From a virus, in IMG/VR virus record IMGVR_UViG_3300010370_000166, positions 1 to 29,604 of that record: a DNA stretch of 29,604 bases; one strand, written 5' to 3'. Each line of letters begins with the position of its first letter. The stretch's first letter is position 1. Position numbers and translations under genes: made by a program. This document shows positions 7,249 through 26,288 of the stretch, piece by piece. The notes under the pieces are model-generated. The model was not told the origin of the DNA. It ran no database searches and saw nothing but the letters and a program-made list of their open reading frames with translations.

Positions 7249-7306
7249 TTTCCTAACATTTGGTTAAAGGATACGTAGAGAAGTGCGGGTTTCCGGCTTT
7301 TTCCTC

Positions 7307-7312
7307 TATAAT
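7307..7312 (+). promoter_or_regulatory. psbA promoter -10 within a palindrome
   Basis: The -10 box TATAAT (7307-7312) lies inside a perfect inverted repeat CCTCTA-TAA-TAGAGG (7303-7317). No good -35 box is at 17 bases. The leader to the psbA start is about 55 bases. The palindrome could serve as an operator or form a 5' hairpin. Confidence 0.6.
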
Positions 7313-7373
7313 AGAGGGGTGGGAGGCCCAACCTTCCTCATTTCTTAGAAACTCGACAACCCGTATTACTACT

Positions 7374-8453
7374 ATGGTAGCTTCAATCGCTCAACGCGAG
7401 CAAAGCAACGCATGGCAGCAATTCTGCGAGTGGATCACATCCACCAACAACCGCCTCTACGTGGGCTGGTTCGGTACTCTGATGATCCCCACCCTCCTCG
7501 CGGCTACTATCTGCTTTATCGTTGCCTTTGTCGCGGCCCCTCCCGTCGACATTGACGGAATTCGTGAGCCGGTGGCCGGTTCGCTGATGTATGGCAACAA
7601 CATCATCTCAGGTGCCGTTGTTCCCTCCAGCAATGCCATTGGTCTTCACTTCTACCCCATCTGGGAGGCTGCTAGCCTCGACGAGTGGTTGTATAACGGT
7701 GGGCCTTTCCAGCTGGTAGTATTTCACTTTCTGATTGGTATCTATGCCTACATGGGCCGTGAATGGGAACTTTCTTACCGACTCGGTATGCGTCCTTGGA
7801 TTTGTGTTGCCTACAGCGCACCCGTTGCTGCTGCTTCTGCAGTGTTTCTCGTGTATCCCTTTGGACAAGGTTCCTTCTCTGATGCTATGCCGCTCGGCAT
7901 TAGTGGAACATTTAACTACATGCTTGTTTTTCAGGCGGAGCATAACATCCTCATGCACCCCTTCCATATGCTTGGGGTGGCTGGTGTATTTGGCGGTTCT
8001 CTGTTCTCTGCTATGCATGGATCTCTGGTCACTTCGTCCCTCGTTCGCGAGACGACAGAGGTAGAGAGCCAGAACTATGGCTACAAGTTCGGTCAGGAAG
8101 AAGAGACATACAATATTGTCGCAGCTCATGGTTATCTTGGTCGCCTAATTTTCCAATATGCATCCTTTAATAATAGCCGTTCTCTTCACTTCTTTCTTGC
8201 TGCTTGGCCTGTGGTCGGAATATGGTTCGCGGCGCTAGGTGTTAGCACCATGGCCTTCAACCTCAACGGTTTCAATTTTAACCAGTCACTGCTTGATAGC
8301 AGTGGTCAAGTTGTTAATACTTGGGCCGATATTCTCAACCGAGCCAACCTTGGATTCGAGGTGATGCACGAGCGCAATGCTCACAACTTCCCTCTCGATC
8401 TGGCTGCTGCAGATGTCACTCCCGTGGCGCTGACGGCTCCGACGATTGGCTGA
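7374..8453 (+). CDS. psbA: Photosystem II reaction-centre protein D1
   Basis: 359 residues from ATG 7374, so the numbering matches cyanobacterial D1 exactly. The frame is open upstream to 7260, but that adds 38 non-D1 residues across the promoter. Visible functional residues are Y161, D170, E189, H190, H198, H332, E333, H337, D342 and A344 (Mn cluster, TyrZ, chlorophyll and carboxy-terminal processing site), followed by a 15-residue tail. E130 is glutamate, as in high-light D1 forms. D1 turns over quickly in light, and phage copies keep photosystem II working during infection. The gene is monocistronic, with its own promoter and a strong terminator. No intron or frameshift is seen. Confidence 0.98.
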
Positions 8454-10460: not shown

Positions 10461-10718
10461 ATGGAGAAGGAAGCTTTTTTCTGCTCGTGTGGAAGCAATG
10501 AGCACTTCTTCGTGCTCACAAAATTCGATGGAGAGGAGGACTTTGTCTATCTCTCCGTGTATCTCGACCGCCCAAGATTTTTTAAGCGCCTAATCAATGC
10601 GTTCAAGTACGTTCTCGGCTATAAGTCCAAATACGGTGAATTTTCTGAAGTATGCCTCGACCGGGAGACTCAGACTCTCCTCCGACAATTTTTAGATCAC
10701 ACAGATGTCACTAACTAG
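10461..10718 (+). CDS. Small protein of unknown function
   Basis: 85 residues, starting 5 bases after the previous stop. The N-terminus has a CSCG pair and His (FFCSCGSNEHFF), a possible partial metal site, then strands (DFVYLSVYLD) and aromatic-rich helices (RFFKRLINAFKYVLGYKSKY). It overlaps the bilin reductase gene by 14 bases. The family is not recognised. Confidence 0.7.
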   Translation: MEKEAFFCSCGSNEHFFVLTKFDGEEDFVYLSVYLDRPRFFKRLINAFKYVLGYKSKYGEFSEVCLDRETQTLLRQFLDHTDVTN

Positions 10719-11361
10719 AAGTATTCGCATGACCTTCCCTGAGTGGGAAGAGACCAACCTCCTGCCAGAAGGCCTGGAGCCGGTGGTGGTGAAGGACGGA
10801 GCGGAAATCCGCTCCTATACATGGTCGGGTGAGATTATCCGTCGCGCCCGCCTATGCGAATTGGCCGTGGAGGGTAAGTTTACCGCCCAAACCCTCGTAA
10901 TCTATCCTAATTGGGAGACAGAGACTCCGATCTTTGGCACAGAGTACATAACCATCGCCGACAAAAAATTCTTCGGCGCCACGGACTTTCATCCGCTTTC
11001 CCAGAACGAGTCGTACATCAAGTCCCAGATCGACGAGTATCTCTACGATTTTCCGGAGCGAACTACGGAGGAATCCAGGTTCTACGATCTTTCCACGTAC
11101 TTCTCGCCTAGGTTTTGGATCCGGAAGTCCGACAAGGACTTCTACTCCGAGTACGTTGACTGGACTGACAGGTACTTAGGGAGGTATCGCATGGCCCTTA
11201 TGGACGGAACGCTCGGACCGAGTAATCGCTCCGCCCACGCCGCCTACGATTCTCACATGGCTGCAAACGACCCCGCCCATGGGATCCTCAAGGCGTACTT
11301 CTCGCCGGAATTCGCCGACTTCTACGTAAACAAGTTCTTATTCGATCTCTCAGACCAATGA
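10705..11361 (+). CDS. Ferredoxin-dependent bilin reductase (PebA/PebS-like)
   Basis: 218 residues. Family hallmarks are LLPEGLEP (19-26), PIFGTEY (75-81), the ATDFHPL block with D94 (proton-donor position), YFSPRFWI (132-139), and the C-terminal AANDPAHGILKAYF with D189 followed by FYVNKFLFDL. These enzymes reduce biliverdin using ferredoxin. The LPEGLE and DPAHG motifs favour the PebA or phage PebS branch (towards phycoerythrobilin) over PcyA. Both aspartates that PebS needs for its two-step reduction are present. No heme oxygenase gene is in the window, so biliverdin would come from the host or a gene elsewhere. ATG 10729 is an alternative start. Confidence 0.85.
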   Translation: MSLTRSIRMTFPEWEETNLLPEGLEPVVVKDGAEIRSYTWSGEIIRRARLCELAVEGKFTAQTLVIYPNWETETPIFGTEYITIADKKFFGATDFHPLSQNESYIKSQIDEYLYDFPERTTEESRFYDLSTYFSPRFWIRKSDKDFYSEYVDWTDRYLGRYRMALMDGTLGPSNRSAHAAYDSHMAANDPAHGILKAYFSPEFADFYVNKFLFDLSDQ

Positions 11362-11747: not shown

Positions 11748-12549
11748 CGTTTTTACGTTCAAATACGCCGGTAGAGAGCCACTAACAACAGCGGAACTAC
11801 TACTCCAGAGGCCGGAGTTGACCGATCTCTATGTTTACGACATCTGCCTTACAACCGGCTCCCTTTTGTACTCCTGTGCTGGTGGCATAGGTATTACAAA
11901 GGAGCCTTTTATTGTTGATATGCACAGGTTCATAAAAACCTCTACTTGCGTACATGCGTTAAAATCGTTCTTCAAGGCCGATTTTGGTAATTACTATACC
12001 AGAAGAAAGTACTATATGGCCCGTGAGAGATTCAACGAGCTGGGGTTGGTTGGTGGACTATCCTCGGCGGAAAGCGCTAGGCTCTATCTACTCTGGAGCG
12101 GAGGTGGGTTCAAGCATAGGTACAGAGGCAGAGGCTACGATGCTTTGTACGCTCCCACCAGCATCGACTACGAAGGCTTGGCTCAAACGTCCCGGCTAAG
12201 CCGGGAGAAAAACCTTCTCTTCAGGAGAGAGGATCTGTCCACCTTCTCCGAGGGGATTATCAACGACAACGTATTTGTTCACATGTACCTCCCGTCGGAA
12301 TTTGGGGTCTACGGCGCCGGGTTTAAGTGGAACGAGCGGGAGATGGAGAAATACGTGCGAGTGGTGAGAGAACTCGGCTCTTTTGGATATAAAGTTTGCG
12401 TTTCTGGACTTTTCGAGCGCAGAGGTAAGATCTTCAGGGATTATAGAGAGTTGTTTCCCGAATTCGACCATCTTGTTCTGCCCGGGTTTAAAGTTTCTGA
12501 GTTAACATTTGAGCCTAAGTTCTCAGAGATACATCTTTTTAACTTCTGA
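11689..12549 (+). CDS. Degenerate Dam-like (D12 class) methyltransferase homologue, probably catalytically changed
   Basis: 286 residues from ATG 11689, which has a GAGG ribosome site at a good distance; ATG 11716 is an alternative. DICLTTGSLL (51-60) matches the Dam PFVGAGSVFL SAM loop. FIVDMHRFIK (74-83) matches ILADINSDLI. YYMARERFNEL (108-118) plus SARLYLLWSGGGFKHRYRG (129-147) match the Dam YYQFREEFN and LFLYLNR...CRYN segments. The catalytic DPPY tetrad is replaced by HMYLP (198-202), and the Gly-rich loop is altered. The fold assignment is from eye alignment only. It may be a pseudo-enzyme or act on another substrate. Confidence 0.5.
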   Translation: MPKTSSASIMEKFGENSSPSVFTFKYAGREPLTTAELLLQRPELTDLYVYDICLTTGSLLYSCAGGIGITKEPFIVDMHRFIKTSTCVHALKSFFKADFGNYYTRRKYYMARERFNELGLVGGLSSAESARLYLLWSGGGFKHRYRGRGYDALYAPTSIDYEGLAQTSRLSREKNLLFRREDLSTFSEGIINDNVFVHMYLPSEFGVYGAGFKWNEREMEKYVRVVRELGSFGYKVCVSGLFERRGKIFRDYRELFPEFDHLVLPGFKVSELTFEPKFSEIHLFNF

Positions 12550-12550
12550 A

Positions 12551-12880
12551 ATGGGAAAGCATTTTCTACTCGATCTTTTTGGCGTGGATCCGGTCCTCCT
12601 CAGGGAGATGGAGAGTTTTATAGAGTTTGTAAGCCCAGAACTGAAAGACTGTATGGCCGAGGTACTTGGCGAGTCATCTCATAAGTTCCCTGGGGAGGGA
12701 GGATACACGTATTTAGCTTTGCTCTCCACATCCCATTTTTCTATTCATACATGGCCGGAGAATGAGTGCTGTGCTATTGACATGTTCTCCTGCGGGGAGA
12801 TTATGTCCGATGTTCTGATCTCCTACGTTATTAAGTACTTCTCTCCGAAATCATATAACCTAAAAATGGTCTCTAGATGA
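12551..12880 (+). CDS. speD: S-adenosylmethionine decarboxylase proenzyme (class 1B)
   Basis: 109 residues from ATG 12551, next to the previous stop; the upstream 14 codons are rejected. The start (GKHFLLDLFGVDPVLL) is the family signature. STSHFSIHTWPE (59-70) holds the self-cleavage serine S61 that becomes the pyruvoyl group, with H66 and C81 (MFSCGE) at the positions of the processing histidine and catalytic cysteine in Thermotoga SpeD. The residue before the cleavage serine is Thr60 rather than the usual Glu. The enzyme makes decarboxylated SAM for spermidine synthesis. Cyanophages commonly carry it, presumably for polyamines in DNA condensation or host physiology. No terminator separates it from the next promoter. 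Confidence 0.93.
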   Translation: MGKHFLLDLFGVDPVLLREMESFIEFVSPELKDCMAEVLGESSHKFPGEGGYTYLALLSTSHFSIHTWPENECCAIDMFSCGEIMSDVLISYVIKYFSPKSYNLKMVSR

Positions 12881-14861: not shown

Positions 14862-15287
14862 ATGTACTTTGCAGCAGCAATTCAAGCTATAAACGCCGGT
14901 CTTACCAAGAGTAACGAGATCGGTACTAAGATGAATATCGCGGTGGTTGATCGTGGCGGAAACTTGGTCGCTTTTGCTCGTGAAGATGGCGCGTGGGTGG
15001 GAAGCGTAGATATCTCGGTTAAAAAAGCAAAAACCGCAACTTTCTTTGATATGGAAACTCAGGAGATCGGAAAACTCTCCCAGCCCGGTGGCAGCTTATA
15101 CAATATCGAACATTCCAACAATGGTCTTATCACCTTCCCTGGTGGGATTCCTCTGTCCGCTCCTGATGGAACGATTCTCGGAGGAGTTGGGGTTTCGGGT
15201 TCTACTGTAGAAAACGATTGGATTGTAGCTCAAGCGGCCGTGGAAGGGTTTAAAGTAGTTTTTATGGAGAGTCCTGCCTCGGCATAG
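14862..15287 (+). CDS. GlcG/HbpS-family (DUF336) protein, possible haem-binding
   Basis: 141 residues, full length for the family. Motifs in order: [19 protein letters not shown] (helix 1), [60 protein letters not shown] and [20 protein letters not shown]. These match the GlcG/HbpS/PduO-C fold. HbpS of Streptomyces binds and degrades haem; many GlcG proteins have no known role. It has its own strong extended -10 promoter. In a phage with a bilin reductase, a haem-related role is attractive but inferred. This is an unusual family for a cyanophage. Confidence 0.88.
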
Positions 15288-17453: not shown

Positions 17454-17524
17454 GCGGGCATGGTGTAGAGGTAACATCTCAGCCTTCCAAGCTGCAGTCA
17501 CCGGTTCGATCCCGGTTGCCCGCT
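17454..17524 (+). tRNA. trnG-UCC: tRNA-Gly(TCC)
   Basis: Acceptor GCGGGCA/TGCCCGC, anticodon loop CTTCCAA on stem CAGC/GCTG, and T arm CCGG-TTCGATC-CCGG. CCA is not encoded. It reads GGA codons. Confidence 0.95.
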
Positions 17525-17525
17525 T

Positions 17526-17588
17526 AGGGGATAACAACGTAGTCGTTGGGCAGACAGCCCAGAAAGACGCGTAACCCCTTCTTTTTGT
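17526..17588 (+). ncRNA. Structured element and terminator between tRNA-Gly and the porin gene
   Basis: AGGGG (526-530) pairs with CCCCT (575-579) around two hairpins, CAACG-TAGT-CGTTG (535-548) and GGGC-AGACA-GCCC (548-560), followed by TTCTTTTT (coordinates +17000). It could simply end the tRNA-Gly transcript. No separate extended -10 box is visible between it and the porin start at 17610, so it could also control read-through into the porin gene as an attenuator. Confidence 0.5.
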
Positions 17589-17609
17589 TCCAATAACCAT
17601 TAAGAAAGT

Positions 17610-18497
17610 ATGAAAAAGCTCGTCTCAGCAATTGGCGCTATCAGCGCAGTTACTATGATTGCTCCGATGTCCGCGATGGCTCAAGTAACTAGCGTCGGTC
17701 AACTGCGCGACGTTCAGCCTACTGAGTGGTCCTATCAGGCCATCTCGAACCTGGTATCTCGTTATGGCTGCATTGCGGGTTTCCCCGATGGCACCTTCAA
17801 GCCAGGTGAGCCTGCTACCCGCGCTCAGCTCGCCGCCCTGACCAACGCCTGCCTCGATCGGATCGCCGAATTCCAAACCGCCGCTGACGCACAACTGGCC
17901 GCTGCTCTTCGCGCGGAATTCGCTCGGGAGCTCGGTGCTACCAATGTCCGTGTAGCACGGCTTGAGAAGGCCGCAGCTCAGAAGTCTCAAGGTGTTGGCA
18001 ACTACGTCGGTGTTGGCGTTCTGCTGAATAAGCAAGGTGTTGATGGTGGCGGTTATACCGAGAACCGTACGATTTCCGGTGCGACCCTCCAAGCTCGTTA
18101 CGCTGCTAAGACTTTCAAAAACCAGAACGCCGTCTCGGTTCGTCCTTACCTGAACGCTGTTGCTGGTCCTAATAGCAATATCGGCACTGCTGGTGGTGCT
18201 CTGCTCTCCTATGACTGGAGCGTTGCCAAGGCTAAGTCCGGTGTGAGCCGCGCGAACATCTACACCGGTGTAGGTTACCAAGTTCCTTTCGCCAATGACA
18301 CTCAGGCCAACTACCAGTCCGCGGTGGGTAGCAAGGGTCAAGTGGTTCTGGCACTTGGCATCGAGGGTCGTCTGACCAACTCTCTGGTGGGATTTGCCGA
18401 TCTGAAGTTCCCCACCACCAACGCTGGGAATAGCTACGGCGGCGCCAACTCCACCTACTCCCCAGTTTTCACCACTGGTCTGGGTATCAAGTTCTGA
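17610..18497 (+). CDS. Outer-membrane SLH-domain porin (host-type)
   Basis: 295 residues. Signal peptide MKKLVSAIGAISAVTMIAPM with cleavage after SAMA. Residues about 27-83 form one S-layer-homology domain: LRDVQPTEWSYQAISNLVSR, YGCIAGFPDGTFKPGEPATR, AQLAALTNACL. A helical linker (FQTAADAQLAAALRAEFARE) precedes about 170 residues of alternating strands ending in GIKF, the typical C-terminal aromatic of an outer-membrane barrel. Cyanobacterial Som-type porins share this order but are nearly twice as long, so the barrel here is short. Codon use looks host-like. Capture from the host and a role in envelope change or superinfection exclusion are inferences. Confidence 0.85.
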   Translation: MKKLVSAIGAISAVTMIAPMSAMAQVTSVGQLRDVQPTEWSYQAISNLVSRYGCIAGFPDGTFKPGEPATRAQLAALTNACLDRIAEFQTAADAQLAAALRAEFARELGATNVRVARLEKAAAQKSQGVGNYVGVGVLLNKQGVDGGGYTENRTISGATLQARYAAKTFKNQNAVSVRPYLNAVAGPNSNIGTAGGALLSYDWSVAKAKSGVSRANIYTGVGYQVPFANDTQANYQSAVGSKGQVVLALGIEGRLTNSLVGFADLKFPTTNAGNSYGGANSTYSPVFTTGLGIKF

Positions 18498-18527
18498 TCT
18501 GTCAGAACCTCCTGACATAGTGGCTAC

Positions 18528-18553
18528 GGGGGCCTTGACTGGCCCCCATTTTT
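18528..18553 (+). terminator. Terminator after the porin gene
   Basis: GGGGGCC-TTGACT-GGCCCCC (18528-18547) is followed by ATTTTTAT. A second small hairpin (TGTCAG/CTGACA) lies directly after the stop. Confidence 0.9.
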
Positions 18554-18554
18554 A

Positions 18555-18563
18555 TGATATGAT
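18555..18563 (+). promoter_or_regulatory. Extended -10 promoter of the hli cassette
   Basis: TG-A-TATGAT directly behind the porin terminator, 29 bases before the hli start, which has an AAGGA ribosome site. Confidence 0.6.
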
Positions 18564-18591
18564 GATTAAGGAAATCTGAAAGGATCGGATT

Positions 18592-18786
18592 ATGACAGTA
18601 ACGACCAACGAACACGGTCAGCAGAATATGTGGGCAAAGGAGCCCACAATGTACTACGAGAATTACGGAATGTATTCTCCCTACGAGGTCAAGGAACGCA
18701 CTAATGGCCGCTGGGCTATGATGGGTGTTATCGCTGGTTTCATCTCTTACGCCGTTACAGGCAACTTCTTCTTCGGAGTATTCTAA
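18592..18786 (+). CDS. hli: High-light-inducible protein (Hlip)
   Basis: 64 residues. The C-terminal single membrane helix has the Hlip signature VKERTNGRWAMMGVIAGFIS, with the chlorophyll-binding ExxNGRxAMxG pattern, and ends TGNFFFGVF. The 30-residue N-terminal tail is polar. Hlips protect photosystems and newly made D1 by binding chlorophyll and carotenoid, which fits with the phage psbA. Its stop overlaps the start of the second hli (TAATG). Confidence 0.95.
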   Translation: MTVTTNEHGQQNMWAKEPTMYYENYGMYSPYEVKERTNGRWAMMGVIAGFISYAVTGNFFFGVF

Positions 18787-18905
18787 TGGACAAAATCTTC
18801 ACTGAAAAAGCTGAAAAGCTCAATGGTAGGCTCGCTATGCTCGGTTTTGTAGCCGCGGTGGGTGCCTACGTTCTCACGGGTCAAGTTATTCCCGGTGTAT
18901 GGTGA
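18786..18905 (+). CDS. hli: Short high-light-inducible protein
   Basis: 39 residues from ATG 18786. The sequence AEKLNGRLAMLGFVAAVGAY followed by VLTGQVIPGVW is an almost minimal chlorophyll-binding helix with the ExLNGRxAMxG motif. It overlaps the previous stop by one base and the next start by one base, so the three genes are coupled. Confidence 0.9.
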   Translation: MDKIFTEKAEKLNGRLAMLGFVAAVGAYVLTGQVIPGVW

Positions 18906-18997
18906 TGGGAGAAGTCATCTTCACTCTTACTAGCATCGCCTTTCTCGTCCTGCTGTTTCACTCCTTGAACCAGCTGGGTAAAACCTACAACATCTGA
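18905..18997 (+). CDS. Single-helix membrane peptide (30 residues)
   Basis: ATG 18905 overlaps the TGA of the short hli. It reads MGEVIFTLTSIAFLVLLFHS and ends LNQLGKTYNI: a single hydrophobic helix with a short polar tail, the size of small photosystem or cytochrome b6f subunits. I cannot match it to a named subunit. The tight coupling to two Hlips supports it being a real gene. Confidence 0.55.
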   Translation: MGEVIFTLTSIAFLVLLFHSLNQLGKTYNI

Positions 18998-19023
18998 GTA
19001 GGAATAGTTTATAGATTACTATC

Positions 19024-19110
19024 ATGGAAAACACCGTCTCCATCACAGCCAAGAACCCCCATTCGTTTGATATCAACAGATATCCGACTGAGGCCCCTCT
19101 TGTCTGCTAA
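19024..19110 (+). CDS. Possible 28-residue peptide
   Basis: The short frame ATG 19024 to TAA 19108-19110 encodes a polar peptide (MENTVSITAKNPHSFDINRY...). It fills the gap between the hli cassette and a strong terminator. There is no recognisable motif and it could be chance. Confidence 0.3.
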   Translation: MENTVSITAKNPHSFDINRYPTEAPLVC

Positions 19111-19146
19111 TGGAGAAAGGTTAAACCGACTCTATAAATAGCAACA

Positions 19147-19180
19147 AGAGGGGGAGGCCAAAAGCTTCTCCCTCTTTTTT
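19147..19180 (+). terminator. Strong terminator after the hli cassette
   Basis: The 12 bp stem AGAGGGGGAGGC/GCTTCTCCCTCT (19147-19175, two G-T pairs, loop CAAAA) is followed by a T run. TATAAATA, the T4 late -10 sequence, occurs just upstream at 19133-19140. Confidence 0.9.
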
Positions 19181-19226
19181 GCTTATGGCCACTCCGGTGC
19201 CAGTGGCACTACTGGCCACCACCCCA

Positions 19227-19255
19227 TTTACAAGTCGGTCTATCCCTGATATATT
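19227..19255 (+). promoter_or_regulatory. Promoter of the main tRNA array
   Basis: TTTACA (19227-19232), 17-base spacer, TATATT (19250-19255) with TG extension. The expected leader begins with the hairpin GGATGGG/CCCATCC at 19264-19283. Confidence 0.75.
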
Positions 19256-19307
19256 AGTCTCATGGATGGGAAACGACCCATCCCGAACCTTGAAAATTTA
19301 ACCCTTC

Positions 19308-19379
19308 GGGTCTGTAACTCAACGGTAGAGTAACGGGCTTTTAACCTGGAAGTTGTGGGTTCGATTCCCACCAGACCCA
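19308..19379 (+). tRNA. trnK-UUU: tRNA-Lys(TTT)
   Basis: Acceptor GGGTCTG/CAGACCC, anticodon loop CTTTTAA, T arm GTGGG-TTCGATT-CCCAC. The top pair of the anticodon stem is mismatched. Confidence 0.92.
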
Positions 19380-19382
19380 TGT

Positions 19383-19473
19383 GGGAGAGTGGCTACTGCT
19401 GGCAATATGTGTAGCAGCGGTCTGTAAAACCGTTACATAGGAACCATCGGGGGTTCAATTCCCTCCTCTCTCA
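19383..19473 (+). tRNA. trnY-GUA: tRNA-Tyr(GTA)
   Basis: 91 bases, type II with a long variable arm. Acceptor GGGAGAG/CTCTCTC (one G-T), anticodon loop CTGTAAA on GCGGT/ACCGT. The D-loop region looks unusually long (GCTAC...GTAGC arms). Confidence 0.88.
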
Positions 19474-19521
19474 TCGCCACTTTGCGCCGGAGCTGATAAT
19501 CCGGAATGCCGGTGGCCCTCT

Positions 19522-19595
19522 GACCCATTAGTGTAGTGGTCTATCACGCCACCCTGTCACGGTGGAGATCACGGGTTCAAATCCCGTATGGGTCG
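19522..19595 (+). tRNA. trnD-GUC: tRNA-Asp(GTC)
   Basis: Acceptor GACCCAT/ATGGGTC with G discriminator, anticodon loop CTGTCAC on CCACC/GGTGG, T arm ACGGG-TTCAAAT-CCCGT. Confidence 0.95.
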
Positions 19596-19784
19596 CTGCG
19601 GTCCGCAATCACCGTCCCGGACGTCTATTGACGCCCCCAAGGGAAAACGAGGTTATCTCAGGATGGCTTTGCTGGTTTACATAGTCCTGGGTGGTAAAAA
19701 TCCAAACCGGCACCAAGCCCCCACCTCTGCTCCGTCCTTATGAGGCGGTTTACGTGTTAAACGCTTTCTGGCGATGGGGCACTT
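19596..19784 (+). other. Unassigned inter-tRNA stretch with inverted repeats
   Basis: No open frame or tRNA is seen. Short complementary arms are CAGGA/TCCTG, GGTTT/AAACC, GTTTA/TAAAC and an outer GCCCC/GGGGC. It could be a folded RNA or a decayed insertion. I cannot assign it. Confidence 0.35.
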
Positions 19785-19858
<74 letters not shown>

Positions 19859-19874
19859 TTGCCTTAGGGCACAA

Positions 19875-19910
19875 CGGGGTGTAGCGCAGCGGTAGCGCGC
19901 CTGTTTTGGG
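19875..19910 (+). pseudogene. Broken 5' half of a tRNA-Pro
   Basis: The sequence has a tRNA-Pro acceptor strand (CGGGGTG), D arm (GCGCAGCGGTAGCGC) and anticodon arm up to CCTGTTTTGGG, then leaves the tRNA pattern with no 3' anticodon stem. A weak T-arm-like GGTTCAAATT follows at about 19926. The same 11-mer CCTGTTTTGGG continues correctly 548 bases downstream in an intact tRNA-Pro, and the HNH gene lies between the two copies. Confidence 0.75.
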
Positions 19911-19945
19911 TTTAAAGATTTTAGCTGGTTCAAATTGATCTTGCT

Positions 19946-20434
19946 ATGATTCACCCAAATTCACTCGCTAACTTACAAAAGGGGAGAACTCGAAATGATC
20001 CAATAGTCCAATGTCCGTATTGTAATAAGCTTATTAAAAAGCCAAATTTGTCCAGACATTCTTCTAAATGCGTACAAAATCCTAAGTTTGGTACACCGTG
20101 TCCTAAGTGCGGAATTCTTAAGCATCCCAAAAAACAAACCTGTAGCACAGGTTGCTATAACAGTTTATTTAGATCAGGACTTAATAATCCTAACCATCAA
20201 AAGGGAAATAATTACAGAACAATTTGTTTTCACCACCATGAGAAGAAATGTTGCGTATGCGGTTTTGATCTAATTGTAGAAGTTCATCACTTAGATGAAA
20301 ATAAACACAATAATGATCCACTTAATCTCGTACCTCTCTGCCCTAATCATCATCAGGTCTGGCATTCAAAGCATAAATTTTTAATAGAAAATCAAATCTT
20401 GAATTACATTGAATCTAAACGGGATATCGCCTAA
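19946..20434 (+). CDS. HNH homing-type endonuclease
   Basis: 162 residues, AT-rich and unlike its neighbours. The N-terminus (HPNSLANLQKGRTRNDPIV) is followed by zinc knuckles (CPYCNKL, CPKCGIL) and the HNH core: CCVCGFDLIVEVHHLDENKH, then NLVPLCPNHHQVWHSKH, with metal and catalytic His residues. Free-standing HNH enzymes spread by cutting a target and being copied in. Its last codons (DIA then TAA) lie inside the 5' end of tRNA-Pro, and it starts 36 bases after the broken tRNA-Pro. The target was probably the tRNA-Pro anticodon region; that is inference. Confidence 0.9.
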   Translation: MIHPNSLANLQKGRTRNDPIVQCPYCNKLIKKPNLSRHSSKCVQNPKFGTPCPKCGILKHPKKQTCSTGCYNSLFRSGLNNPNHQKGNNYRTICFHHHEKKCCVCGFDLIVEVHHLDENKHNNDPLNLVPLCPNHHQVWHSKHKFLIENQILNYIESKRDIA

Positions 20435-20495
20435 CTTGGTCATGGCACCTGTTTTGGGAACAGGAATAATCTCAGTTCAAATCTGAGTATCCCGA
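20420..20495 (+). tRNA. trnP-UGG: tRNA-Pro(TGG)
   Basis: Acceptor CGGGATA/TATCCCG, anticodon loop TTTGGGA on CCTGT/ACAGG, T arm CTCAG-TTCAAAT-CTGAG. Positions 13-15 (TAA, 20432-20434) are the stop codon of the HNH gene. Confidence 0.95.
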
Positions 20496-20501
20496 CTCGG
20501 G

Positions 20502-20609
20502 AACGCCAAGGAACGGCGTTTTAAACGAAGGGTCCCCTAAGCCGCATCGTAGATGCACCCTCTGGTGGGTGATCGTAGGCGGATACCCTCGCCCAGGCGC
20601 CGAAGCGCC
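20502..20609 (+). ncRNA. Run of hairpins between tRNA-Pro and tRNA-Arg, possible folded RNA
   Basis: Hairpin AACGCC/GGCGTT (502-520) is followed by TTTT. Then GGGT-CC (530-535) faces GGATACCC (581-588) and GCC (541-543) faces GGC (578-580), enclosing GCATC-GTA-GATGC (544-556) and ACCC-TCTGGT-GGGT (557-570). A last hairpin GGCGC-CGAA-GCGCC is at 596-609 (coordinates +20000). There is no T-loop sequence, so it is not a tRNA. Its layout resembles the element after tRNA-Gly. Confidence 0.4.
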
Positions 20610-20613
20610 TCAT

Positions 20614-20688
20614 GCCCTTGTAACTCAGCCTGGATAGAGTATCCGACTTCTAATCGGTTAGTCGTAGGTTCGAATCCTACCAAGGGTG
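20614..20688 (+). tRNA. trnR-UCU: tRNA-Arg(TCT)
   Basis: Acceptor GCCCTTG/CAAGGGT (terminal G-T), anticodon loop CTTCTAA, T arm GTAGG-TTCGAAT-CCTAC. It reads AGA. Confidence 0.93.
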
Positions 20689-20717
20689 TTGAAAGATATC
20701 AGTAGTATCTTTCGAAA

Positions 20718-21275
20718 ATGAACAATTGCTTACAGTGCGGTGTAAACACAAAAAACCCCAAATTTTGTAGCAAATCTTGTTCGGCAAGTTGGAATAATAA
20801 AAAAGTTCCCAAGAAAAAGAAAAAAAGTTTAAAAATTGCAGAGTGCTTAAATTGTTCTAAAGTTTTTGAATATAGTTCCTATCACAATAAGGGAAAGTAT
20901 TGTTCAAATAGCTGTCAAGTTAAATTTCAAAGGTCTCAAATTATAGAAAAATGGAAACAAAATCCTAAAAGCTCTATAAGAGCCGGATACAAGATAAGCT
21001 CTGTTATAAAAAACTATCTTATAGAAAAAGCTGAGAGTTGTTGTTCTTTATGTGGATGGAGCGAAATAAACCAATATACTGGTAATGTACCGCTAGAAAT
21101 TCATCACATTGACGGCGATTGCTCGAATAACGCAGAAGAAAACTTGCAAGTATTATGCCCAAATTGTCATTCTCTCTCTCATAATTACAAGGGAGCAAAT
21201 AAATCAAAAGCAAGTTCAATTAGGTCCAAGTATTTTAAAGTAAAACAAAAAGAAAATAATGGGAGTATAGCTTAG
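20718..21275 (+). CDS. HNH homing-type endonuclease, second copy type
   Basis: 185 residues, AT-rich. Two zinc knuckle pairs occur at the N-terminus (CLQCGVN...FCSKSC and CLNCSKVF...YCSNSC), then a basic linker and the HNH core: CSLCGWSEINQY, LEIHHIDGDCSNNAEENLQV, LCPNCHSLSHNYKG. It is clearly a different protein from the HNH at 19946. A perfect hairpin GAAAGATA/TATCTTTC lies directly before the start. The last codons (SIA then TAG) fall inside tRNA-Ile, at the same tRNA positions as in the other HNH gene. Confidence 0.9.
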   Translation: MNNCLQCGVNTKNPKFCSKSCSASWNNKKVPKKKKKSLKIAECLNCSKVFEYSSYHNKGKYCSNSCQVKFQRSQIIEKWKQNPKSSIRAGYKISSVIKNYLIEKAESCCSLCGWSEINQYTGNVPLEIHHIDGDCSNNAEENLQVLCPNCHSLSHNYKGANKSKASSIRSKYFKVKQKENNGSIA

Positions 21276-21334
21276 ATGGTAAAAGCATTCGACTGATAAT
21301 CGAAAGAGCACTGGTTCGAATCCAGTTACTCCCA
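21261..21334 (+). tRNA. trnI-GAU: tRNA-Ile(GAT)
   Basis: Acceptor GGGAGTA/TACTCCC, anticodon loop CTGATAA on TTCGA/TCGAA, T arm ACTGG-TTCGAAT-CCAGT. Positions 13-15 (TAG) are the stop codon of the HNH gene. Confidence 0.95.
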
Positions 21335-21337
21335 CTC

Positions 21338-21409
21338 GCCCTTGTAGCATAACGGTAATGCAGCGCTCTTGTAAAGCGAAGATTGCTGGTTCAAATCCAG
21401 TCGAGGGCT
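21338..21409 (+). tRNA. trnT-UGU: tRNA-Thr(TGT)
   Basis: Acceptor GCCCTTG/CGAGGGC (one T-G), anticodon loop CTTGTAA, T arm GCTGG-TTCAAAT-CCAGT. It directly abuts tRNA-Asn. Confidence 0.94.
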
Positions 21410-21482
21410 TGGGGTATAGTTCAGTTGGTAGAACGGGCGGCTGTTAACCGCTATGTCGTAGGTTCGAGTCCTACTACCCCAG
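21410..21482 (+). tRNA. trnN-GUU: tRNA-Asn(GTT)
   Basis: Acceptor TGGGGTA/TACCCCA, anticodon loop CTGTTAA, T arm GTAGG-TTCGAGT-CCTAC. Confidence 0.94.
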
Positions 21483-21485
21483 CCA

Positions 21486-21572
21486 GGAGGGCCAAGCAGA
21501 TTGGCGACTGCAGCGGTCTTGAAAACCGTCGAGGTGTTAAAGCCCTTGGGAGTTCGACTCTCCCGCCCTCCG
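21486..21572 (+). tRNA. trnS-UGA: tRNA-Ser(TGA)
   Basis: Type II tRNA with acceptor GGAGGGC/GCCCTCC, anticodon loop CTTGAAA on GCGGT/ACCGT, a long variable arm and G discriminator. TTTTT follows directly. Confidence 0.95.
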
Positions 21573-21626
21573 TTTTTGCCGTGTTTAAAGATAATTTGGT
21601 AGCAAATTCTCCAACTCCTCAGCAAA

Positions 21627-22043
21627 ATGGCCAACCTCTTCGGAACTTCGGATGTAAGACTGGCCGTTCTGGAGGAAAAATTAGTTGTTTACGAGGATCT
21701 CTCGAAGGAGATGTTGTCCAAACTCGAGGCTGCGGTGAATAAGATCTCTGAGGCAAACCAGAACGTAGCGAAGATTCTGGTTCGCCATGAGGAGCGTCTT
21801 GACCAAAGTATCCAATCCGATACCGCCATAATGAAGCTCCTTGAGGAGCTCAGAGCCGCTAATCGGCGCGAGGCCAAGGATACGGAGACAAAGATAAATA
21901 CTCTAAGCTCAAGGGTCGACGATCTCTCAAGGTTTAAGTGGGTGGTGGCCGGTATTCTGCTCGTTGTGGGAGTGATTGCGGGGCAGGTTAACGTTCTCGA
22001 GTCGATGTTCCCCCAACCCCCGTCAATCCATTCGGACCGGTGA
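21627..22043 (+). CDS. Coiled-coil membrane protein (XhlA-like)
   Basis: 138 residues. A long heptad region (about 10-95: LAVLEEKLVVYEDLSKEMLS...ILVRHEERLDQS...) is followed by one membrane helix (FKWVVAGILLVVGVIAGQV) and a short Pro-rich tail. Coiled coil plus C-terminal helix is the layout of XhlA-type haemolysin/holin accessory proteins and of similar small cyanophage proteins; a lysis role is possible but not shown. Its TGA overlaps the GTG start of the next gene. Confidence 0.75.
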   Translation: MANLFGTSDVRLAVLEEKLVVYEDLSKEMLSKLEAAVNKISEANQNVAKILVRHEERLDQSIQSDTAIMKLLEELRAANRREAKDTETKINTLSSRVDDLSRFKWVVAGILLVVGVIAGQVNVLESMFPQPPSIHSDR

Positions 22044-22201
22044 GAGGTCAGCGGATTGGCTTCGTGTACAAAAGTACCTGGAAAACGGGTATAATACAAT
22101 GCGTATCTGCTGATTTTCCGGGACACTATGCTGTATTTCTCGTCAAAGATTCCTCTGGCTCAATTATCCCCGTGGATTCACGAGACGTTGCGTACATATG
22201 A
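22040..22201 (+). CDS. Small beta-rich protein (53 residues)
   Basis: GTG 22040 overlaps the previous TGA (GTGA). The peptide reads RGQRIGFVYKSTWKTGIIQC, then GHYAVFLVKDSSGSIIPVDS and RDVAYI, alternating strands like a small barrel. A -10 box lies inside it at 22090. The family is not recognised. Confidence 0.6.
   Translation: MRGQRIGFVYKSTWKTGIIQCVSADFPGHYAVFLVKDSSGSIIPVDSRDVAYI
22090..22095 (+). promoter_or_regulatory. Internal -10 box (GGGTATAAT)
   Basis: TATAAT within the 53-residue gene, without TG extension or clear -35 box. It could start transcripts for the overlapping membrane peptide. Confidence 0.4.
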
Positions 22202-22289
22202 CACAGCGATCGTCGGAGTACTGAGCTTTCTCTTGATCTTTGTGCCCATCTATGGTATAATGTACATACACCAAAAGCCAAAAGACTAG
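22128..22289 (+). CDS. Small membrane peptide overlapping its neighbour
   Basis: An open frame runs from ATG 22128 (53 residues) to TAG 22287-22289. Its C-terminal part (TAIVGVLSFLLIFVPIYGIM) is one membrane helix followed by a basic tail (YIHQKPKD). Most of the first 20 residues overlap the previous gene in another frame, so TTG 22188 (33 residues) is a plausible true start. The second tRNA promoter lies inside its 3' half. Confidence 0.5.
   Translation: MLYFSSKIPLAQLSPWIHETLRTYDTAIVGVLSFLLIFVPIYGIMYIHQKPKD
22233..22261 (+). promoter_or_regulatory. Promoter of the second tRNA group
   Basis: TTGATC (22233-22238), 17-base spacer, TATAAT (22256-22261) with TG extension, 33 bases before tRNA-Ile(TAT). 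Confidence 0.8.
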
Positions 22290-22293
22290 GTAA

Positions 22294-22365
22294 GGGACTG
22301 TCGCCTATCGGTTAAGGCCCACTGCTTATAACGGTGTGAACTGAGTTCGACTCTCAGCAGTCCTA
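22294..22365 (+). tRNA. trnI-UAU: tRNA-Ile(TAT), rare anticodon
   Basis: Acceptor GGGACTG/CAGTCCT (terminal G-T), D arm GCC/GGC, anticodon loop CTTATAA on CACTG/CGGTG, T arm CTGAG-TTCGACT-CTCAG. The unmodified anticodon reads ATA. Most bacteria use a lysidine-modified CAT tRNA for this codon. Confidence 0.88.
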
Positions 22366-22368
22366 CTA

Positions 22369-22441
22369 GCTCCTTTAGCTATCTGGTGAAAGCACCCGAC
22401 TCATAATCGGATATAGGTGGGTTCGATCCCCTCAAGGAGCA
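22369..22441 (+). tRNA. trnM-CAU: tRNA-Met(CAT), elongator type
   Basis: Acceptor GCTCCTT/AAGGAGC, fully paired at 1-72, so not an initiator. Anticodon loop CTCATAA, one T-stem mismatch. An Ile2-type CAT tRNA cannot be excluded, but a separate Ile(TAT) is present. Confidence 0.85.
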
Positions 22442-22465
22442 CTAGCCCATCTCCAAACACTTTCT

Positions 22466-22624
22466 ATGAAGAAAAAGAAGTTCAACGAGCTCATCCAAAA
22501 GCCTCTAAGATTCCACCATCAGGACATCCACGAGGAACTCGACGAGATAAAATCGATGCTTCTGGAACTAAGAAGCCAGATCAAAGATATAAAGGAGACT
22601 TTGCCTGAATGGCGGAATAGGTAG
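22466..22624 (+). CDS. Short basic coiled-coil protein ending inside tRNA-Leu
   Basis: 52 residues from ATG 22466: MKKKKFNELIQKPLRFHHQD, then heptads EELDEIKSMLLELRSQIKDI, ending LPEWRNR. The last 7 codons and the TAG stop (22622-22624) are tRNA-Leu sequence; the stop is the conserved D-loop GGTAG. This repeats the arrangement of the two HNH genes. Function is unknown. Confidence 0.55.
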   Translation: MKKKKFNELIQKPLRFHHQDIHEELDEIKSMLLELRSQIKDIKETLPEWRNR

Positions 22625-22686
22625 ACGCCCTGGTTTTAGGTACCAGTGGGGGTAACCCCGTGGAGGTTCGAGTCCTCTTTCAGGCA
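22603..22686 (+). tRNA. trnL-UAG: tRNA-Leu(TAG)
   Basis: Type II tRNA with acceptor GCCTGAA/TTCAGGC, anticodon loop TTTAGGT on CTGGT/ACCAG, and a variable arm with GGGG/CCCC. Confidence 0.95.
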
Positions 22687-22688
22687 TC

Positions 22689-22760
22689 GGGAGATTAACT
22701 CAGCGGTAGAGTGGCTGCCTTACAAGCAGTAAGTCACTGGTTCGATCCCGGTATCTCCCA
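22689..22760 (+). tRNA. trnV-UAC: tRNA-Val(TAC)
   Basis: Acceptor GGGAGAT/ATCTCCC, anticodon loop CTTACAA on GCTGC/GCAGT, T arm ACTGG-TTCGATC-CCGGT. Last tRNA of the array. Confidence 0.95.
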
Positions 22761-23003: not shown

Positions 23004-23528
23004 GTGAACATCTTCTTCCTCGACCATGATCCCCAGGAGGCTGCAAAAGCCCACTGCGATAAGCATGTCAACAAGATGATCATCGAGCACCTCCAGATGA
23101 TGAGTGTTGCTCTCGACCACCACGGATTGAACCCGGCTCGTAAAAAAGACGGTAACTTCTACTCCGTGAGAGGCTTCAAGAATCATCCATGCACCAAATG
23201 GGTCAAGGAGTCGGTGGGAAATTTCATATGGACATGGAAACTCACCTGGCATCTCTGCGAGGAGTTTAACCTGAGATACGGTAAGGAACACTCAGGTAAG
23301 CAAAGCCTTAAGTCCATAGATTTACAATCTGTGGTGTTTGACTTTCCGGACTTGGGATACACTCCTCCTGCTCAAGCGATGCCAGACTTCTGCAAAGTCG
23401 ATGGGAACGCGGTCCAAGCCTATCGCAACTACTACAACTGGATGAAGTGGAGATTCGCTACATGGAAAAACGAGCCTCCCGAGTGGTGGGCTCCCTCCTG
23501 CTGCCTCGAGGCCTCGGACCAGTACTAG
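23004..23528 (+). CDS. Conserved phage protein (DHDP...CDKHVNKM family)
   Basis: 174 residues from GTG 23004, preceded by AGAGG. It opens NIFFLDHDPQEAAKAHCDKH followed by VNKMIIEHLQMMSVAL, a pattern shared by many phage proteins of unknown function. HPCTKWVKESVGNFIWTW and a tryptophan-rich C-terminus (YNWMKWRFATW, PPEWWAPSCC) follow. The conserved Asp/His/Cys could bind a metal, but no activity is known to me. It forms a monocistronic unit with its own promoter and terminator. Confidence 0.8.
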   Translation: MNIFFLDHDPQEAAKAHCDKHVNKMIIEHLQMMSVALDHHGLNPARKKDGNFYSVRGFKNHPCTKWVKESVGNFIWTWKLTWHLCEEFNLRYGKEHSGKQSLKSIDLQSVVFDFPDLGYTPPAQAMPDFCKVDGNAVQAYRNYYNWMKWRFATWKNEPPEWWAPSCCLEASDQY

Positions 23529-23597: not shown

Positions 23598-26288
23598 ATG
23601 TCCAAACTCAACTCCTTAGGTTATGTAGTCCTTTCAGACTCGATGAACGCCAAGGTGTTTGGAGACGGCATTCAGGCCAAAGATCTGGGAAAAAAGAAAG
23701 TCCTCGAAGTCACCGAGGAGATGGAGGGGTTTGGCGTTAACTTTCCCGTTAAAAACCCCGAGAATTTCTTCATCGACGACTTCGATCTTCCGGAACTTCA
23801 GGCTCCCACAATCAAAGATCACTTCGACACCATCTCCAAGGAAGTCACCGCTAAGCGCGTCCGGCTCATGAAGGATTTTGCTTATACGGAAGTCCCCGAC
23901 GCCCCGGACAAGACAAAGTACTTCCTCCATGCCGGATGGGTTAAGTACCCATTCGACGGAGCTGCCGAAGTCGTGGATGGTATCGAAGAGCAGATCGGAG
24001 TATTTGACTGCGAGACCTTCGTGAAGGGAAGCGACTTCGCCCATCCGATTCTCGCCACGGCCGTTACCGACAAAGCTTACTACATCTGGATGCATCCGAG
24101 TTTTGTCAATCCCAAAGTCCCCTATGAGCCGATGCTCGTCCCCCTAGGTCGCAAGGACGGAGTCTTTATCGCGCATAACGTAGCCTACGACCGCCCTCGG
24201 ACGGCTGAAGCCTACGTCCTCGGAAAGACCAACTCGTGGTTTGACACCATGTCAGCCCACATCAACGTCTCCGGCCTCGCTTCCGGCCAGCGATGGTGGT
24301 ATATTCAGAAACAGGCGAAGAAAGCCACCTACAAAGCCGATCCGATCTGGGCCGATAAGGGCTCGATGAACAACCTCATCGACTGCTATAACTTCCACTG
24401 TCGCCCCGCGATCCCTCTCGAGCAGGAGGACAAGAAGATCCGTAATACGTTCGTAGAAGCTACCTCTATGGAGGATTTCCTGCCAGAGCAGGACGAACTC
24501 ATCCAGTACGCTCTCAACGACGTTAAGATCACCTTCGAGTTATATTCGATTCTCGTTCTCAAGTATCTCCAGAACAACCCGTCCCTGACCACTCTTGCTG
24601 GTCACTTCGGAATCGCCGCCGCTAAACTCCCTGTGGTCTCTGACTGGGAGGATTGGTTCGCTTACTGCGAGAAGCAATGGGAGGATTCTATCGCGCGCCA
24701 GGAGGAGATCCTGGGCAAGATGGCCACTGAGATCTACGAGGCATGGAATGAGGGAGAGCTTAATGACGAGGACATCAAGGAAGATCCGTGGCTCTCACAG
24801 CTCGACTGGGAGGCAAATTTCAAGCTCACCAAGGCTGGAAAGCCCAGCTCGAAGTGGTACGGAGTTCCCAAATGGGTGAGGAGCGTCTCCGCCAAGGACC
24901 TAGTGGATGGCAAACCCGTCATCGAAGGAATCTCGACCAAGAACCGCCTTTCCCACCTTCTGCTCCGCCTCAAGTGGGATAATCAACCCATCCGGTTCTT
25001 CACTGAGAAGGGCTGGTGCTATATGGACGAGGATAGTGGCTCATACGTTCGTATTCCGCACAAGGACGGAGAGGGTGTTAACGTTGGCGGAGTTCTGACC
25101 AAAGATTACGTAGAGGATTTTGAGTCCGGGATTCTGGACTCCGACCTCCCGCAGGCCAGAGAGCTTATCTCGCTCGCTGTTAATGTCGCCTACTGGACGT
25201 CTGTTCGTTCACGTGTGCGAGAGCAGAATGTAGAGACCGTAGACACGCCTAGCGGGAGCAAATTCAAACTTATCGTGCCAGCATCAGTGCCTCATAACAC
25301 CTCCACCAATCGCGCTGGGGAGAATCTCTGGCTGACTGTGCCCGATCCGAAGTACGATAAGATTGGCAGTGAGATCAAGACTCGCGTCCAAGCTCCAGAG
25401 GGCTACGTGTTCGTCGAATCCGACTTCGATGCCCAGGAGGCCGTGGTTGCCTCGATCTTTGCCGACTCCCATCATAAACTGGCCGGGAGTACTCAGTTCT
25501 CCCACTCCATCCTCGCCGGATCTAAGGACGATGGAAGCGATATGCACTCAATGACCGCTAAAGCCATCGGAATCACTCGTGCCATCGCCAAGGGCTGTAA
25601 CTATGGTATGTTGTACGGATGCGGAGCTAAGACCCTGGCCAATACGATCCGCAAGGGTAACAAAAGCATCCCGATGAAGGAGGCCATGGAGATGGGTAAG
25701 AAACTCATCAAGATCAAGAAGGGCGAAAAAGCCTCGAGGCTTTCCCAGACCCTGATCGGTGGATCCGACTCCTACGCATACAACGAGATGGCTCGGATTG
25801 CCAACATGCCCTGCCCAATCAATCCTCTCAGCGGCACCAAGATGTCCACAGCCTTCCGCCCCTCGAGTGTGGGAACGGACTTCTGGACCATGAGGAACAA
25901 CTGGTGCATCCAATCCACCGGGAGTGCCATGCTCCACGCCTTCATGACCGCTATGGAGTGGCTCATCGATAAGTACGAGTTGGAAGCGGAGTTCTGCATG
26001 AGCGTCCACGACAGCATCTTGTATCTTTGTCCCGAAGCCCAGGCGGAAAAAGTCGCGGCCCTCTTCCAGGTGGCTCATGCCTGGTGTTGGGCCTGGATGC
26101 GGTATAATTACGGTATCTATGAGCTCCCAGTGGCCAATGCTTGGCTCTCCTCGATTGAGATCGATAAGATCTTCAGGAAGTCCGCTGACTCCAGCACCAA
26201 AACGGTCTCGCAGCGTACGGACGAGGAGGATGGACGATCCGTCACCATTCAGGATCTCATCCCCGTATTCAATTCGATGTTCAAATGA
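23598..26288 (+). CDS. Family A DNA polymerase resembling mitochondrial Pol gamma
   Basis: 896 residues. 3'-5' exonuclease: VFDCET (D137, E139), AHNVAYDR (N194, D198), YALNDV (Y304, D308). Polymerase: motif A VESDFDAQE (D609), motif B RAIAKGCNYG (R661, K665, Y669), motif C SVHDSI (H804, D805). Beyond these, Pol gamma segments recur in order: FDTMSAHINVSGLASGQRW, KEDPWLSQLDWE, PHKDGEGVNVGG, LWLTVPDPKYDKIGSEIKTR, GSDMHSMTAKAIGI, CIQSTGSAMLH and a C-terminal SSIEIDKIFRK. Human Pol gamma is about 1,240 residues, with a mitochondrial signal and larger spacer absent here. It is presumably the phage replicase, and Tyr669 predicts dideoxynucleotide sensitivity. Its stop overlaps the next start (ATGA). 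Confidence 0.95.
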   Translation: MSKLNSLGYVVLSDSMNAKVFGDGIQAKDLGKKKVLEVTEEMEGFGVNFPVKNPENFFIDDFDLPELQAPTIKDHFDTISKEVTAKRVRLMKDFAYTEVPDAPDKTKYFLHAGWVKYPFDGAAEVVDGIEEQIGVFDCETFVKGSDFAHPILATAVTDKAYYIWMHPSFVNPKVPYEPMLVPLGRKDGVFIAHNVAYDRPRTAEAYVLGKTNSWFDTMSAHINVSGLASGQRWWYIQKQAKKATYKADPIWADKGSMNNLIDCYNFHCRPAIPLEQEDKKIRNTFVEATSMEDFLPEQDELIQYALNDVKITFELYSILVLKYLQNNPSLTTLAGHFGIAAAKLPVVSDWEDWFAYCEKQWEDSIARQEEILGKMATEIYEAWNEGELNDEDIKEDPWLSQLDWEANFKLTKAGKPSSKWYGVPKWVRSVSAKDLVDGKPVIEGISTKNRLSHLLLRLKWDNQPIRFFTEKGWCYMDEDSGSYVRIPHKDGEGVNVGGVLTKDYVEDFESGILDSDLPQARELISLAVNVAYWTSVRSRVREQNVETVDTPSGSKFKLIVPASVPHNTSTNRAGENLWLTVPDPKYDKIGSEIKTRVQAPEGYVFVESDFDAQEAVVASIFADSHHKLAGSTQFSHSILAGSKDDGSDMHSMTAKAIGITRAIAKGCNYGMLYGCGAKTLANTIRKGNKSIPMKEAMEMGKKLIKIKKGEKASRLSQTLIGGSDSYAYNEMARIANMPCPINPLSGTKMSTAFRPSSVGTDFWTMRNNWCIQSTGSAMLHAFMTAMEWLIDKYELEAEFCMSVHDSILYLCPEAQAEKVAALFQVAHAWCWAWMRYNYGIYELPVANAWLSSIEIDKIFRKSADSSTKTVSQRTDEEDGRSVTIQDLIPVFNSMFK

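Follow-up and report, generated by a model that had tools for sequence, protein, structure and literature searches.

The window, by which we mean the whole stretch of DNA analysed, is a virus record of 29,604 bases. Its genes run in an S-TIM5-like order: topoisomerase II, alpha-glucosyltransferase, psbA, S-adenosylmethionine decarboxylase, a tail/baseplate-type structural protein, a Pyr_excise DNA-binding protein and the DNA polymerase that is the subject of this report. The following genes were located.

5977-7248: alpha-glucosyltransferase
7260-8453: psbA
10705-11361: ferredoxin-dependent bilin reductase
12509-12880: S-adenosylmethionine decarboxylase
14862-15287: HbpS-like haem-degrading protein
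17610-18497: SLH-domain protein
23004-23528, plus strand: DNA-binding protein upstream of the polymerase, positioned as in S-TIM5 (phrog_624; Pyr_excise domain)
23598-26288, plus strand: predicted Pol gamma-type family A DNA polymerase, 896 aa (ORF translation, Pfam, phrog_22619 at 1172 bits, phmmer, S-TIM5 match, model fold)

A cluster of 14 tRNA genes occupies 17454-22760, with HNH endonuclease ORFs interspersed (19946-20434 and 20718-21275). The polymerase ORF begins with ATG, spans 23598-26288 exactly, encodes 896 aa and has no internal stops. Its product looks mitochondrial, which raises the question of whether the contig is a chimera or eukaryotic DNA. We reject this reading as having next to no chance of being correct: the ORF is intact, of bacterial type and set amid phage genes in S-TIM5 order, and copies of the polymerase up to about 90% identical are carried by other environmental IMG/VR contigs, several of them independent. 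The full-length polymerase shares 72% identity with its S-TIM5 counterpart (YP_007006067.1). Judging from its genes, the window is a relative of S-TIM5, that is, an Aurunvirus-like cyanophage.

What kind of polymerase does this phage encode? By homology and by model, the product of the ORF belongs, from end to end, to the Pol gamma (POLG) type of family A DNA polymerases. Pfam detects both DNApol_Exo ('DNA mitochondrial polymerase exonuclease domain', E 8.2e-53) and DNA_pol_A (4e-15), each above the curated cut-offs. In a phmmer search of all PDB sequences, the best match is yeast Mip1 (E 6e-121), with human and mouse POLG at 1e-89 to 7e-97 (human about 3e-92), bacterial Pol I marginal (best E 9e-4) and the T7 polymerase chain without a match at E <= 1. 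With the two Pfam domains and Mip1 scoring at these levels, the resemblance to Pol gamma lies far beyond chance. Identity to the mitochondrial enzymes (Mip1, human) is about 25-29%.

An earlier note on this DNA had described long Pol gamma-specific blocks occurring in the same order as in the mitochondrial enzyme. All are present in the translation and align in order with human/yeast POLG in the phmmer alignment (window sequence given first): DTMSAHINVSGLASGQRW with DTMSMHMAISGLSSFQR, KEDPWLSQLDW with KEDPWLWDLEW, PHKDG...NVGG with PHKDG...NVGS, WLTVPDPKYDKIGSEIK with WLTASNARPDRVGSELK, GSDMHSMTA with GTDLHSKTA and, at the C-terminus, SSIEIDKIFRK with FSAVDIDRCLRK; R-x3-K-x3-Y is also present. 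The domains and motifs map as follows.

23778-24557, plus strand: 3'-5' exonuclease domain, aa 61-320 (Pfam DNApol_Exo, E 8.2e-53)
23994-24020, plus strand: Exo I, aa 133-141, IGVFDCETF (D137, E139), by alignment
24168-24194, plus strand: Exo II, aa 191-199, IAHNVAYDR, by alignment
24504-24524, plus strand: Exo III, aa 303-309, QYALNDV (Y304, D308), by alignment
24783-25070, plus strand: short spacer, yeast Mip1-like, from DPWLSQLDW (aa 396) to PHKDG (aa 487-491)
25410-25442, plus strand: polymerase motif A, aa 605-615 (D609, plus E614 where the sugar-selecting Glu normally sits)
25578-25619, plus strand: motif B (O helix), aa 661-674, R661-x3-K665-x3-Y669, YG
26007-26015, plus strand: motif C, aa 804-806, His-Asp-Ser, with Ser for the usual Glu

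The predicted structure points the same way. An AlphaFold2 model, computed template-free from an alignment of the window polymerase and its IMG/VR relatives, reached a pLDDT of 81.8 and a pTM of 0.82. When it was compared to the PDB with Foldseek, the top 36 matches were all POLG, at query-normalised TM scores of 0.73-0.85 (Mip1 0.83, human 8d33 0.84), and T7 polymerase came next after the POLG entries at 0.38. An ordinary T7-like (T-odd) phage polymerase, resembling Pol gamma only through general family A similarity, would accord with the phage origin, the family A assignment and the presence of motifs A, B and C. It would leave unexplained why T7 goes unmatched where Mip1 scores 6e-121, why the fold is so much closer to POLG than to T7, and why the tree sets the window polymerase apart from T7 and Pol I; we reject the T7-like reading with near certainty. 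The full-length resemblance to Pol gamma and the distance from T7, both proposed in the earlier note, are thus borne out by profile search, alignment, fold and tree.

Its proposal of a Pol gamma insert architecture stood in part. The POLG-specific core spacer blocks are present in both sequence and fold alignments, but the human expansion is missing: the stretch from DPWL to PHKDG measures 90 residues in the window polymerase, against 122 in Mip1 (positions 405-527) and some 270 in human POLG (positions 448-718, 5c51 numbering), as counted from phmmer alignments and motif positions. Part of the human-size insert binds the accessory subunit. Gap lengths reveal no insert of that size in the window polymerase, and a POLG2-like anticodon-binding fold (HGTP_anticodon) was found in 0 of 14 POLG phages. 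The missing insert, together with the lack of a detectable POLG2-like fold in related phages, suggests a Mip1-like single-subunit enzyme.

In the alignment, the acidic residues of Exo I-III, D609, D805, E614 and the O-helix residues R661, K665 and Y669 are all conserved. The usual motif C Glu (HDE) is absent, as it is from S-TIM5, already named a POLG, and we treat this residue as usual but non-defining for Pol gamma membership. With near-identical copies counted, HDS is found in 92 of 92 distinct sequences of the window's clade and HDE in 41 of 41 other POLGs (S-CBWM1-, A-HIS- and Mic1-type phages, yeast, human and mouse), a pattern for which a single change on the tree suffices. T7 RNA polymerase has HDS at the motif C position (IHDSFG), while T7 DNA polymerase has HDE. 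We found no description of the HDS/HDE split among POLGs in the largely open-access literature searched. Is HDS a neutral change, or does it signify a functional shift that affects fidelity, the use of metal or the range of substrates? A motif C without the usual Glu could alter activity, and both the fixation of HDS throughout the clade after one change and its occurrence in T7 RNA polymerase would fit such a shift. However, the catalytic Asp, E614 and the O-helix Tyr are retained, and in Pol I the HDE Glu is not known to be strictly required; we regard a functional shift as rather unlikely. The window enzyme is still expected to act as a DNA polymerase, since it keeps the motif A Glu and the O-helix Tyr.

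Taken as a whole, the ORF is very probably the gene for the replicative DNA polymerase of a cyanophage of S-TIM5-like (Aurunvirus-like) type, a proofreading, Mip1-like single-subunit member of the Pol gamma branch that has a DUF5906 partner and shares ancestry with mitochondrial POLG. Sequence and model show an N-terminal 3'-5' exonuclease in which Exo I, II and III are all present; a short spacer of POLG type follows, and then the polymerase domain, which has the catalytic aspartates of motifs A and C and the R-x3-K-x3-Y O helix. It would copy the phage genome with proofreading and work as a single subunit in the manner of yeast Mip1. Its partner would be a phage-encoded DUF5906 P-loop primase/helicase-like protein, not a helicase of the Twinkle/T7 gp4 type.

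Why propose this partner? Among 50,697 phage records, the S-TIM5 'DNA primase' (DUF5906, P-loop; NC_019516 143592-145451) matches only the POLG carriers S-TIM5/54/61/66, A-HIS1, S-CBWM1 and Mic1. DUF5906 is present in all four complete POLG phages and absent in T7; it is also present in all nine POLG contigs of at least 110 kb and in 10 of the 12 long POLG contigs. The POLG-primase gap is about 107 kb in S-TIM5, so shorter contigs cannot span both genes, and the window, a 29.6 kb fragment, ends short of the primase gene. The reverse test, with contigs of at least 110 kb selected by primase (n=8), returned six already listed as POLG carriers and two others that also carry POLG. Gene trees of POLG and primase are concordant within the S-TIM5-like and S-CBWM1-like groups, the trees being unrooted with long deep branches for A-HIS1 and Mic1. 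Neither DnaB_C (the Twinkle/gp4 type) nor a T7-type RNA polymerase was detected in any of 16 POLG phages and long contigs, with the T7 control positive for both. The 'primase/helicase' label of the DUF5906 protein comes from Pfam, PHROGs and the P-loop only, and its model has a pLDDT of 64 with the ATPase core below 50. The pairing of POLG with DUF5906 (S-TIM5; L105-L108, L183-L192) crosses phages reported as sipho- and myoviruses. A shared replication set of polymerase, FEN, helicase and primase was partly noted for Mic1, A-HIS and S-CBWM1 (PMC7156551); the absence of Twinkle-type helicases from POLG phages was not found described in the largely open-access literature searched.

At least 137 IMG/VR loci match the POLG pattern, and 5 of the 12 long POLG contigs carry photosystem reaction-centre genes. 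No POLG relative turned up when the genomes of 84,980 prokaryote species, prophages included, were scanned twice by pattern, though divergent copies can escape such scans. The result is in line with the published view that, outside eukaryotes, POLG is known only from cyanophages (PMC7156551).

Several relatives have interrupted polymerase genes. The motif A codons are a shared interruption site in Mic1-like phages and in locus L093 (L041:7815-8087; L093:9795-10016 and 10935-11141; L180 about 4282-5154). Group I intron matches occur at the polymerase interruptions of L041 (1.9e-10) and L093 (1.7e-7), and L093 has a second, weaker group I intron match at motif B. Judged by eye, GIY-YIG-like reading frames lie within the L093 introns, and the insert in L180 has an HNH-like frame. 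In contig G014 (IMGVR 3300010354_000050; 81669-85378, L236-L238), an exonuclease ORF and a polymerase ORF lie about 0.9 kb apart with the break in the spacer, possibly a naturally split POLG.

How do these phage enzymes relate to the mitochondrial one? When the tree is rooted on T7 and Pol I, the POLGs of phages, the window's included, and of eukaryotes form one group apart from these outgroups (100/99), whose branches are very long. Eukaryotes, represented in our trees by yeast, human and mouse only, are nested among the phages and adjoin Mic1. The unrooted tree separates Mic1 plus eukaryotes from all other phages with support of 100/100; the same split is recovered when each half of the protein is analysed by itself (exonuclease 100/99, polymerase 100/98), and a clade of Mic1 with A-HIS is rejected (p 2.6e-5). 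The earlier note had suggested that a cyanophage with the Pol gamma insert architecture would be a much closer relative than the T-odd phages. On these trees Mic1, not the window's clade, is the phage lineage nearest to mitochondria. The grouping of Mic1 with eukaryotes may itself be an attraction artefact, because the Mic1 and yeast branches are both long. Searching for further phage POLGs of the A-HIS-like and yeast-like kinds yielded few extra loci and left the Mic1 branch unbroken, the Mic1-like ones being about 97% identical to Mic1. Mic1 motif B (L041:8120-8977) reads RDNAKTVVYSRRYSAG, against NYGRIYGAG or similar elsewhere, an unusual O helix even though Mic1 is nearest mitochondrial POLG.

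By sequence comparison, mitochondrial POLG and this phage family share ancestry. In which direction did the gene move? The simplest direction would be the passage of one phage POLG gene into an early opisthokont, which the tree does not prove; eukaryotic POLG is limited to opisthokonts according to Harada et al. 2024, as cited in PMC12230644. Alternatively, the phage family could have taken its gene from a eukaryotic mitochondrial-type POLG. In the rooted tree, with its very distant outgroups, an arrangement of all phages as one clade with eukaryotes outside is not rejected (AU p 0.137), as this reverse transfer would have it. Phage POLG, in which at least four deep lineages can be told apart, is nevertheless far more diverse than eukaryotic POLG, which is confined to opisthokonts, and the best rooted tree puts eukaryotes inside the phages beside Mic1; we judge eukaryote-to-phage transfer improbable. 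Tentatively, and at somewhat less than an even chance, we propose that mitochondrial POLG came from within the cyanophage family, from a Mic1-like lineage, through single-gene entry into eukaryotes. The animal mitochondrial replisome would then be a mosaic whose parts come from different phages, not a T-odd phage replisome inherited as a unit, as suggested by POLG phages that carry DUF5906 with no detectable Twinkle/gp4-type helicase or T7-type RNA polymerase. This constant pairing with a non-Twinkle primase-like protein argues against a joint one-phage origin of the mitochondrial polymerase, helicase and RNA polymerase.

Cyanophage POLG is already known (A-HIS1/2, S-TIM5, S-CBWM1, Mic1), and the window is one more member. 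The idea in the earlier note, a cyanophage POLG bearing on mitochondrial origin, is not a discovery: it had been proposed by Chan et al. 2011, as relayed in PMC3914683 and PMC7156551, and the S-TIM5 polymerase is a close match. Later reports concern S-TIM5 in 2012 (Sabehi et al.) and S-CBWM1 in 2018 (Xu et al.). Mic1 POLG followed in 2020, with a common origin with the mitochondrial enzyme proposed, and the Tyr/Phe difference in motif B among POLGs is also published (PMC7156551, PMC3914683). Apparently new, in that we did not find them published, are the grouping of Mic1 with mitochondrial POLG, the HDS partition, the lack of POLG in the pattern scans of prokaryote genomes alongside at least 137 IMG/VR loci, the DUF5906 pairing with no detected Twinkle/gp4-type helicase or T7-type RNA polymerase, and the minimal Mip1-like spacer. 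Where the mitochondrial replicase arose is a long-standing question, and the environmental POLG relatives, over a hundred of them, open it to testing by trees. By itself the window leaves the picture unchanged; clues to the source of the mitochondrial enzyme lie in the wider group.

Of the known systems, S-TIM5 (genus Aurunvirus) is most like the window in its HDS motif C and in its neighbouring topoisomerase II, alpha-glucosyltransferase, psbA and Pyr_excise DNA-binding protein. It is a different species, and between psbA and the polymerase it carries a cassette of photosynthesis and carbon-metabolism genes; the same interval of the window is taken up mostly by tRNAs, HNH endonucleases and small genes of other kinds. 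The POLGs of S-CBWM1, Mic1 and A-HIS1/2 share the family and architecture of the window polymerase at 28-35% identity but have HDE; in S-CBWM1 and A-HIS the O-helix Tyr position is occupied by Phe, and in Mic1 a group I intron interrupts the gene at motif A. Complete genomes of S-TIM5-, S-CBWM1-, Mic1- and A-HIS-type POLG phages have the DUF5906 primase-like protein in common. Mitochondrial POLG (Mip1, human) resembles the window polymerase in exonuclease, spacer core, polymerase motifs and fold (TM 0.83-0.84), whereas the window enzyme has a shorter spacer, HDS for HDE and no Mip1 C-terminal extension. The T7 gene 5 DNA polymerase is likewise a family A enzyme with a 3'-5' exonuclease, but it has no detectable full-length similarity to the window polymerase, a TM of 0.38 and none of the POLG spacer blocks.
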